This document shows positions 13,997 through 44,644 of a DNA stretch of 49,101 nucleotides, in pieces. Within the stretch, counting starts at the first letter, position 1, and each line of letters opens with the position of its first letter. The stretch comes from Candidatus Zixiibacteriota bacterium. GTDB taxonomy: Bacteria > Zixibacteria > MSB-5A5 > GN15 > FEB-12. The stretch covers positions 1 through 49,101 of the forward strand of contig JAQUSF010000012.1 in NCBI GenBank assembly GCA_028715215.1, in the 5' to 3' direction. The notes beneath the pieces were generated by a model, which did no database searches, was not told where the DNA came from, and worked only from the letters and a program-made list of their open reading frames with translations. The position numbers were made by a program, and so were the translations under genes.

Positions 13997-14500
13997 ATGA
14001 AAAAGATTTTTCTGGCCATATTACTTTTAATAATAGTGATTGCCGTCAGTTATTATCAGGTACATCGTCAGGAAGCCCGCGAGCAAAACCGTTATGAAAA
14101 AGGGTATGAAGAAGGAACCCGAGGGGTTGAAAGGCTCAGCGGTGAAGTTGATTCGCTAAGACAAGTCGTTGACAGACAAGAACTTGAGTTTTCCGGCAAG
14201 TTTGAGCAAACCGAGCAAGCTTATGCCGATACCATTGATTCCCTGAAAGAAGTCGTTTCTCTTCAGGAGCAGAAAATAATGAAATTGCAGTCGCCGGATA
14301 AAAAAGAAAATTCGCTTACGGATAAGCACGCCCTGATTTTAAGCTATTACAAGAAAAGATATTCGGAACTACCCGGCGACCTTTCCAATTACGAAAAAAG
14401 AGTAGCTCTGACGGAGATAAGAGAAGAGACAGCTCAGAAGTTTGCCATCACCGTAACCGAGCTTGATAAGATTAGAGAAAATAACAACTTGAATTATTAA
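13997..14500 (+). CDS. Single-pass membrane protein with coiled coil, unknown function
   Basis: A 167-residue protein. Residues 4-20 are a hydrophobic anchor (IFLAILLLIIVIAVSYY) with a positive start, so it is an uncleaved signal anchor. Residues 30-100 are charged and Glu/Gln-rich with heptad-like spacing, a probable coiled coil. The last 60 residues (LILSYYKKRYSELPGDLSNYEKRVALTEIREETAQKFAITVTELDKI) form a compact helical domain that I cannot name. It has its own promoter and ribosome site (AGGAG, 9 bases upstream). A sigma-region-4-like gene starts 14 bases after its stop, so the two are probably one transcript. Confidence 0.75.
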   Translation: MKKIFLAILLLIIVIAVSYYQVHRQEAREQNRYEKGYEEGTRGVERLSGEVDSLRQVVDRQELEFSGKFEQTEQAYADTIDSLKEVVSLQEQKIMKLQSPDKKENSLTDKHALILSYYKKRYSELPGDLSNYEKRVALTEIREETAQKFAITVTELDKIRENNNLNY

Positions 14501-14514
14501 CCGGGAATTGATTT

Positions 14515-14793
14515 ATGGTGCCACGGAAAGAGATGGAGAACACTGAAATATTGATCGGGAAACTTTTATTGAGGTTATATGCCAGTGAAAATCTGTCGAT
14601 TGATAAATTACGTCATGACCTCAGGTGGCATATTGACAATTCGCTTTCAACGCGCCAGGAACAGGTTATGAAATATTTCCTGAACGGGAAAAAAGAGCGG
14701 GAAATAGCCCATATCCTGGGCATCACCCAGCAGGTGGTAAATATATATAAGCAACGGGCAATCAAGAAGTTAAACAAATTACTGATAGACTGA
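14515..14793 (+). CDS. Small sigma-region-4-like helix-turn-helix protein
   Basis: A 92-residue protein whose C-terminal half (STRQEQVMKYFLNGKKEREIAHILGITQQVVNIYKQRAIKKLNKLL) matches sigma-70 region 4 / LuxR-type HTH layout: a linker helix, helix-turn-helix with a Gly-Ile turn, and a basic recognition helix. There is no region 2, so it cannot be a complete sigma factor. ATG 14515 has a weak GGGA upstream; an internal ATG at 14533 is a possible alternative. Encoded just after the coiled-coil membrane protein, it may be a DNA-binding regulator tied to that protein. Confidence 0.72.
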   Translation: MVPRKEMENTEILIGKLLLRLYASENLSIDKLRHDLRWHIDNSLSTRQEQVMKYFLNGKKEREIAHILGITQQVVNIYKQRAIKKLNKLLID

Positions 14794-14838
14794 ACCCGGT
14801 TGCATACATTTTTATTTTAAAAAGTCTTCAAATTTCTC

Positions 14839-14867
14839 TTGACAGGTAAGCGTATTATTTTTAGTAT
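14839..14867 (+). promoter_or_regulatory. Sigma-70-type promoter for the leader RNA / 67-aa gene
   Basis: TTGACA at 14839-14844, a 17-base spacer and TAGTAT at 14862-14867 (with overlapping TATAAA). It would start a transcript near 14874, giving a leader of about 215 nt before the ATG at 15090. Confidence 0.6.
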
Positions 14868-14873
14868 AAAATG

Positions 14874-15089
14874 GGGTAATAGAATTTTTTCTGTAGCACC
14901 TTGAAACCCTTTGGTCTTTAAAGGAGGTGATAGGAAGTATTTTTTTGGTCCCTTTTATGTTGTTATCTGTCTCTAATTGGTATCAACGGTGACATTGATA
15001 CTTATGAATGAGGTTGCTATATCCTTGATAACAACATACTCCTGCAACCGCCAATGTAATAGGGGAGATAACATAAATAGGGAGTCGAT
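14874..15089 (+). ncRNA. Candidate structured leader RNA
   Basis: The stretch between the promoter and the 67-aa gene holds several complementary segments. TATGTTGTTATC (14956-14967) pairs perfectly with GATAACAACATA (15027-15038). Inside lies GTATCAA/TTGATAC (14980-14986 with 14995-15001). GGTTGC (15012-15017) can pair with GCAACC (15044-15049), crossing the first helix. GATAACA (15067-15073) could compete for the first arm. A full-consensus AAGGAGGTGAT sits at 14921-14931 with a 15-codon frame starting TTG 14945, a possible leader peptide. It matches no riboswitch class that I recognise. Confidence 0.45.
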
Positions 15090-15293
15090 ATGCCAAAGAG
15101 AAAAGAGGCCGAAAATTTTGCGGCCGTTGGTGAAAAGGATTACTGGCACTTATATGGTTTACAGGTGTTAACTCCGAACAAATTTGCTGCCGTAGTCGGA
15201 AAGATTTTGAATGGGCAATACACCTTGATAAATTCAAGTTTCAAGAAGAATGTTGCTGTAAGCAGTTTTTTCGACGTCAATTATAATTGTTAG
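15090..15293 (+). CDS. Small 67-residue protein, unknown
   Basis: ATG at 15090 follows GGGAG with 5-6 bases spacing, and a strong terminator follows the stop, so this looks like a genuine small gene. The protein starts with a basic segment (MPKRKEAENF), has a mixed central part (EKDYWHLYGLQVLTPNKF) and ends SFFDVNYNC with its only Cys as the last residue. No transmembrane segment or known family is apparent. It could be a small regulator or a modified peptide precursor, but nothing in the window proves either. The long structured leader suggests regulated expression. Confidence 0.5.
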   Translation: MPKRKEAENFAAVGEKDYWHLYGLQVLTPNKFAAVVGKILNGQYTLINSSFKKNVAVSSFFDVNYNC

Positions 15294-15326
15294 TGTCAGT
15301 ATCGTCCTGTATTTTTTTAAATTTTG

Positions 15327-15357
15327 CAGGGCTCAACTTTTTGAGCCCTGTTTTTTT
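15327..15357 (+). terminator. Strong Rho-independent terminator
   Basis: A perfect 10-bp stem CAGGGCTCAA/TTGAGCCCTG with a 4-nt loop is followed by seven T residues. It lies 33 bases after the 67-aa gene. Confidence 0.9.
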
Positions 15358-15393
15358 ATTTAAATTAATTTAGCTTTCCGCACCTTAAGTTAG

Positions 15394-15399
15394 TATAAT
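15394..15399 (+). promoter_or_regulatory. Candidate -10 element for the rhodanese gene
   Basis: A perfect TATAAT lies 36 bases before the ATG at 15436. No convincing -35 box is found at the usual distance. Confidence 0.4.
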
Positions 15400-15435
15400 A
15401 CAATAGCAATTGTTAAGAAAAACGAACATCGGGTA

Positions 15436-15954
15436 ATGGCGATTAAGCAGGCAATAATATTACTGGTCATAGCAGCGATTCTTGGTTTGGGAGCCAATCT
15501 GTTTTCCCCCAACAAGATAGAATATATCGGCGCTTACCGGAATCTGTCGGGCAGCGATGGTCCGATCATACCGCCAGATGCCGATGAAAATGACCCGCCC
15601 TTTATCGATATAAATACCGCCCATTTTGAACATAGTACCAAGCGGACAATTTTTATTGATGCCCGTGAACGGGAGGAATTCGAGTGCGGTACCATTCCCG
15701 GGTCAATCAACATCCCTTTCGATTACCTGCCGGACGGCGATCTAAAGTTGTATTTTGATTCATCTCTGGGTCATGTTGCTTTTGACCAGCCTATCGTGGT
15801 CTTTTGTTCCGGCGAAGAATGTGACCAGTCGCTTCATCTGGCTCGGAATCTGGCTGAATATGGTTATTCTGATGTCACTATCTTTTTCGGAGGCTCGCGT
15901 GAATGGGAGCGCTTCAGCCTCGAGATAGAAAGGAGAAAAAATTGCGGCGGTTGA
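15436..15954 (+). CDS. Membrane-anchored periplasmic rhodanese-like protein
   Basis: A 172-residue protein with an N-terminal hydrophobic anchor (AIILLVIAAILGLGANLF) followed by one rhodanese domain (about 55-168). The active-site loop is VVFCSGEECDQS, with Cys in the usual place, and the CH2-like DAREREEFECGTIPGSINIP precedes it, so sulfurtransferase or sulfur-carrier activity is plausible in the periplasm. The following gene overlaps its 3' end and encodes a MauE/DoxX-like membrane protein, a common pairing. Its natural substrate is unknown. Confidence 0.85.
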   Translation: MAIKQAIILLVIAAILGLGANLFSPNKIEYIGAYRNLSGSDGPIIPPDADENDPPFIDINTAHFEHSTKRTIFIDAREREEFECGTIPGSINIPFDYLPDGDLKLYFDSSLGHVAFDQPIVVFCSGEECDQSLHLARNLAEYGYSDVTIFFGGSREWERFSLEIERRKNCGG

Positions 15955-44490: not shown

Positions 44491-44563
<73 letters not shown>

Positions 44564-44572
44564 TTAAATTTA

Positions 44573-44644
<72 letters not shown>

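Follow-up and report, generated by a model that had tools for sequence, protein, structure and literature searches.

A conserved leader RNA upstream of a small-protein gene

The 216-nt stretch that precedes a small-protein gene in Candidatus Zixiibacteriota bacterium (GenBank assembly GCA_028715215.1) belongs to a new conserved leader RNA, for which the best description is standby-type control of translation in a sequence-specific form. The leader combines sequence conservation, complementarity to the 3′ end of 16S rRNA, depletion of start codons behind the complementary element, a narrow spacer, and a true Shine–Dalgarno (SD) sequence buried in a co-varying hairpin. Judged from these features of the sequence, the start-less element probably parks ribosomes and so controls translation of the small protein. 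Coordinates refer to the window, i.e. the whole 49,101-nt stretch of DNA analysed (contig JAQUSF010000012.1), in which the leader occupies 14874–15089; the features of the locus are all on the forward strand.

The leader is placed between a gene for a 92-aa LuxR/sigma-region-4-type HTH protein (14515–14793) and the gene for a 67-aa protein (15090–15293; MPKRKE...KDYWHLYGLQ...). The preliminary description had claimed a clean promoter and terminator, and searches for both bear this out, with a sigma-70-type promoter (TTGACA-17-TAGTAT, 14839–14867) and an intrinsic terminator (15326–15351) as the sole sites found within 14480–15500. Given its own promoter and terminator, we expect the leader to form the 5′ UTR of a ~480-nt monocistronic mRNA. 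The C-terminal coding end of the HTH gene also lies upstream of the leader in many relatives, and at the end of that gene related genera have a conserved promoter region resembling TGTATGTCAAA in place of the TTGACA-17-TAGTAT of the window. In most relatives, a strongly conserved promoter region of the form GTGTATGTCAAA-n-CTATTATATG lies ~150–290 nt upstream of the ATG (e.g. L009, L019, and L021), directly where the upstream HTH gene has its stop codon, and is missing from the genus of the window; it is possibly a binding site of the HTH protein. Elsewhere in the window there are an ordinary FMN riboswitch (RF00050, 4469–4597) and two adjacent tRNA genes (44491–44644).

The 67-aa protein belongs to a Zixibacteria family for which no match was found in Pfam or NCBIfam, with the consensus MPKRKE..F...KDCWHxYGLQxLxPxKFxxVVxKILxGxY. 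Structure prediction gave a single confident short helical core, and comparison of the predicted structure with the PDB returned no meaningful match. Relatives of the protein were present in 97 of the 99 Zixibacteria genomes searched. A scan of 84,980 species genomes yielded 65 confirmed loci. Their names were Zixibacteria or uninformative, with a few exceptions (Calditrichota, FCB group, or Ignavibacterium) that we take to be mislabelled bins as these loci group with the others. Paralogs of the protein lack the 16S-complementary element. Among them, 46-aa proteins (MAKKRKP..LPEKTCWHLYSLQ..) have leaders (L136–L156) of which many contain sigma-54-like -24/-12 promoters (e.g. TGGCAC-N5-TTGCA) and some a GTCCTGCCGAT/CGGCAGGAC hairpin. 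For the comparative analysis, 78 leaders were collected, including 77 from the order of the window, all preceding the small-protein gene and sharing little overall sequence; start codons and motifs were counted on 52 non-redundant leaders.

A start-less complement of the 16S rRNA 3′ end

The most conserved feature of the leader, on which the preliminary description was silent, is GGAGGTG at 14923–14929, which 69 of the 77 leaders from the order share without change. It forms the core of AAGGAGGTGAT (14921–14931), a start-less extended SD sequence and putative 30S docking element with perfect complementarity to the 16S rRNA 3′ end. In general form, the element reads AAGGAGGUGRU, an exact match of 11 nt, and the 16S gene of the same genome ends in ...GGCTGGATCACCTCCTT (read at G000:C61). 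The flanks of GGAGGUG vary as pairing with the 16S tail 5′-AUCACCUCCUU-3′ allows. The base that follows it, opposite a U of 16S, is A in 48 leaders and G in 21, and never a pyrimidine; the next base is U in 61 of 69, the preceding base is A in 66 of 69, and the one further 5′ is A or G in 61 of 69. Even a deviating leader (L047), which reads GGGGUGAUA, remains wobble-compatible with 16S. One family of the order (f3) and a few genera have lost the element or retain it only in degenerate form.

In this genome, infB has the same sequence, AAGGAGGTGAT, as its normal SD, shortly before the AUG. After the same extended SD, AUU is the likely start of an infC-looking gene (L187 and L200) and AUA that of a DnaJ-like gene (L215). 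In the leader, the element lies far from the start codon, ~100–170 nt upstream in the family of the window and 76 to 189 nt upstream (counted from GGAGGTG) in the order-level leaders. Within the 12-base stretch where a start codon would be expected (+8 to +20, beginning 8 nt after the first base of the element), no AUG occurs in the 52 non-redundant leaders, and canonical starts appear in 6 leaders compared to 15.1 expected (p = 0.0035, which, like every p-value given here, is optimistic since the leader sequences are related by descent).

In contrast to this variable distance to the AUG, the spacing between GGAGGTG and the downstream hairpin is nearly fixed. The start of the UCCC-containing anti-SD arm follows at ~26 nt, mostly 21–33, across the leaders. 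The intervening spacer (14932–14948) appears to be non-coding, as close relatives differ downstream of the element by one- or two-base indels, which are not triplets. GGAGGUG was slightly more accessible than in shuffled sequences, with an unpaired probability of 0.30 compared to 0.27 (p = 0.046), i.e. it is only ~30% unpaired in the predicted folds.

Across the whole genome, AAGGAGGTGR is not enriched overall, with 17 matches compared to 25 for the reversed control. Three further intergenic start-less AAGGAGGTGR sites were observed in this genome (L186, L191, and L197), 117–131 nt ahead of genes whose products look secreted; two of these are related proteins of ~460 aa, and the other, of 210 aa, looks porin-like. 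A site in a sister species (L182, genome G001) looks like the ortholog of L191. On sequence grounds, these four may be further docking sites.

The true Shine–Dalgarno sequence is sequestered in a co-varying hairpin

Downstream of the spacer, an anti-SD arm (14949–14974) pairs with an SD arm (15060–15084) that ends in the true SD, GGGAG at 15080–15084. The minimum-energy fold of the stretch contains this hairpin (-41.2 kcal/mol). RNAalifold on the family alignment misses the SD helix because its register changes from clade to clade (e.g. GCAUCUC/GAGAUGC in one of them), and for the same reason a count of pairs in a fixed register is uninformative in the family of the window. We therefore used a cross-pairing test, in which arms from the same leader are compared with arms taken from different leaders. 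Cognate anti-SD and SD arms in the family of the window paired at -20.3 kcal/mol compared to -16.3 kcal/mol for non-cognate arms (p = 0.0002). Most control pairs of regions gave no cognate advantage, the exceptions being a local 5′ hairpin (p = 0.002) and the loop with the SD arm (p = 0.007), which adjoins the SD-hiding hairpin.

A second, independent group gave support of another kind. In the other families, both partners have changed in 7 of 10 hairpin pairs; in 500 shuffles, neither this count nor the covariation score was ever reached. In the large alignment of the window's own family, co-variation in the outer SD helix does not exceed that of shuffles, and the support there comes from the cross-pairing test. 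Compared to shuffled leaders, the true SD also has lower accessibility (p = 0.00014). The co-variation and energy tests together indicate that the true ribosome binding site is sequestered in a stable structure, as expected for standby. A lack of covariation among homologous leaders had been named as grounds for refuting the preliminary description; covariation was found, but for the SD-hiding helix. Between the loop and the anti-SD arm, cognate partners paired no better than mismatched ones across the family (p = 0.61).

Conserved motifs and alternative roles of the leader

Several further motifs recur in the leaders. AGCACCTT (14895–14902) is a 5′ element able to pair with AAGGAGGUG, possibly closing the docking site, and AGCACCT is found in 14 of the 52 leaders compared to 0.1 expected. 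GGAGGUG can also pair within the leader, either with AGCACCUU upstream or with UCACCGC downstream. Pairing of AGCACCUU with GGAGGUG had no cognate advantage in the cross-pairing test, a comparison limited by the invariance of one side. For both alignments RNAalifold suggested a possible pairing of GGAGGUGA with UCACCGC; it shows no co-variation, and permuted control probes pair with the leaders equally well or better. In the region 14977–15089 and its relatives, the motifs UCACCGCC and ACCGCCAU are also conserved, with two copies in some families.

The motifs ACCGCC and GGUAACUACUUC are conserved with no partner that would explain them, as might be expected if a protein, perhaps the encoded one, recognized GGAGGUGRU and loop motifs in an autoregulatory or factor-binding leader, the match to 16S being incidental or a mimicry. 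The restriction of an order-wide element to the leaders of one protein family, and its absence from those of the paralogs, would fit such a role, as would the basic start (MPKRKE) and good conservation of the encoded protein. However, factor binding gives no reason for an exact 11-nt match to the 16S tail that varies only by wobble, nor for the depletion of start codons downstream, and we consider it unlikely.

A ligand-sensing riboswitch, with the loop between the hairpin arms as aptamer and two folds as on and off states, appears distinctly improbable. The window does contain two mutually exclusive folds, and the loop motif UAUAUnnUUGGUAACUACUUC is conserved in many members of the family. 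This motif is confined to part of the family, however, and outside that subgroup the loop varies in length and sequence; an aptamer is normally the part that is kept, whereas here it is the docking element. The preliminary description recognized no Rfam class, and our search agrees: against 4227 Rfam models, no match was found in the leader at gathering or permissive thresholds, and the best sub-threshold matches fell at the terminator end of the transcript.

A genus-specific alternative fold

The preliminary description centred on a set of crossing helices, all of which are present at the positions it gave. TATGTTGTTATC (14956–14967) is fully complementary to GATAACAACATA (15027–15038), forming a perfect 12-bp helix. 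The inner hairpin GGTATCAA/TTGATACT is found, GGTTGC (15012–15017) can pair with GCAACC (15044–15049) across the helix, and GATAACA (15067–15073) is indeed a competing copy. Among 500 dinucleotide shuffles of the 216 nt, a single one formed a perfect helix of at least 12 bp; the total folding energy of the stretch is ordinary (z -1.03). In the minimum-energy fold, TCCC...TATC, which is the same strand as the arm of the 12-bp helix, pairs instead with the segment ending in the SD GGGAG. When forced, the 12-bp helix gives -38.5 kcal/mol, and its ensemble probability is 0.005.

An insertion of ~60 nt, absent outside the genus of the window, forms the 12-bp helix, the inner hairpin, and the crossing pair. 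The helix and the crossing pair are seen in two sequences only, the window and L003, which comes from the only other member of the genus. In L003, the 12-bp helix differs by a single change of A–U to G–U, and the inner hairpin, the crossing pair, and the competing SD-hiding fold are likewise retained. The 5′ arm of the helix overlaps the anti-SD arm, and its 3′ arm stands at the place of the loop motif UAUAUYYUUGGUAACUA conserved in other genera. The 3′ side of the crossing pair, in a feature extending over 15044–15053, overlaps the conserved ACCGCC motif.

As the 12-bp helix takes the anti-SD strand, it would leave the SD free and could act as a second switch. In the genus of the window, the helix, perhaps with the crossing pair, would then be a second fold that frees the SD, making the leader bistable. 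A stronger version, in which a genus-specific switch based on these two elements operates and 30S docking plays no role, seems to us very doubtful. The rarity of such a helix in shuffles and its retention with the crossing pair in L003 speak for it; it is seen in two sequences, differs from the minimum-energy fold, and has no support in other genera. Of the switch or pseudoknotted leader RNA suggested by the preliminary description, the structured leader, the small gene, and the two exclusive folds, one hiding the SD, stand; the crossing pair and 12-bp helix as its functional core find no support outside the genus.

A leader peptide, i.e. a short upstream ORF driven by the strong SD from a non-canonical start and attenuating the downstream gene, is highly improbable: extended SDs with non-canonical starts are known in Staphylococcus aureus (PMC13009471) and an AUU probably starts the infC-looking gene of this genus, but near-cognate starts after the element occur at chance (26 compared to 26.9 expected) with no preferred position, and together with the non-triplet indels between close relatives this argues against a peptide, as does the AUU frame of the window, which is stopped after two codons in L003. 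No conserved short ORF with a start codon after the SD was found, and a leader-peptide attenuator was rejected.

A model for 30S docking beside the hairpin

Returning to the standby reading, we give an even chance to a cis-acting translational leader in which sequence-specific 16S docking takes place beside the SD-hiding hairpin. The true SD of the small-protein gene would be buried in the hairpin, and immediately upstream AAGGAGGUGRU would pair with the 16S rRNA 3′ tail and dock the 30S subunit. With no start codon suitably spaced from the element, the subunit could not initiate at this site and would wait ~17 nt from the base of the hairpin. When the hairpin breathes open, the waiting subunit would capture the real start site. 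From the known 30S footprint, we assume that with 16S paired at GGAGGUGRU, the downstream mRNA would fill the 30S channel to about the foot of the hairpin. We infer the docking of 30S, its effect on translation, and any signal to which the leader responds, whether the level of free 30S, the protein itself, or a ligand. Weighing against the model are the alternative partners of GGAGGUG within the leader and its largely paired state in the predicted folds, the outer SD helix that does not co-vary above shuffles in the large family alignment, and the degenerate or missing element in f3 and a few genera. A rather unlikely extension of the model is that the leader senses free 30S directly, through a sequence-specific site that has evolved to pair with 16S and that, when occupied or empty, determines whether the adjacent hairpin opens and feeds a small ribosome- or growth-related protein. 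If it were true, start-less extended SDs before other genes of the genus would point to a general mode of control in Zixibacteria.

A near-invariant start-less 16S complement, held at a nearly fixed distance from an SD-hiding hairpin throughout an order whose members are uncultured, would be a natural landing site recognizable by its sequence. It could be tested with specialized ribosomes and found in other genomes by a simple scan.

Comparison with known systems

Ribosomal-protein leaders and translational riboswitches also place an SD-hiding hairpin in a conserved leader with alternative folds. The Zixibacteria leader shares this architecture; it differs in having no Rfam match or known ligand, and the encoded protein is no known ribosomal protein. 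Ribosome standby has been proposed to explain how mRNAs with hidden start sites are translated. In the standby landing sites that we found described in the literature so far, a conserved sequence signature is absent. Our search of the literature on Zixibacteria found nothing on noncoding RNA, small proteins, or riboswitches, and nothing was found on start-less, non-initiating, or tandem SD sites.

The closest parallels lie in three systems. In E. coli tisB, 30S uses an unstructured site ~100 nt upstream of the sequestered ribosome binding site, aided by a pseudoknot at the 5′ end to which protein S1 binds (PMC7708055). The Zixibacteria leader resembles tisB in its sequestered ribosome binding site, in 30S binding first ~100 nt upstream (here an inferred step), in the structure near its 5′ end, and in preceding a small-protein gene. 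However, where tisB has an unstructured stretch, a pseudoknot, and S1, the Zixibacteria leader has a conserved 11-nt 16S complement; the crossing pair of the window, a candidate counterpart to the tisB pseudoknot, lies within the insertion seen in two sequences only, and a second candidate, the GGAGGUGA-UCACCGC crossing, has no co-variation. Moreover, tisB is a toxin–antitoxin locus, which the Zixibacteria locus is not, as far as seen, and no sequence relation between the two is shown. The modules of the biophysical standby-site model (Espah Borujeni et al., PMC3936740) likewise offer 30S a landing pad by a hairpin, ahead of the real 16S-binding site. Those modules were described for synthetic 5′ UTRs as landing surfaces, with no 16S pairing in their definition, in contrast to the evolutionarily conserved, sequence-specific complement found here. 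Finally, the extended SD sites of S. aureus (PMC13009471) share the extended pairing with the 16S 3′ end; there the extended SD positions a start codon, whereas the Zixibacteria element has none.
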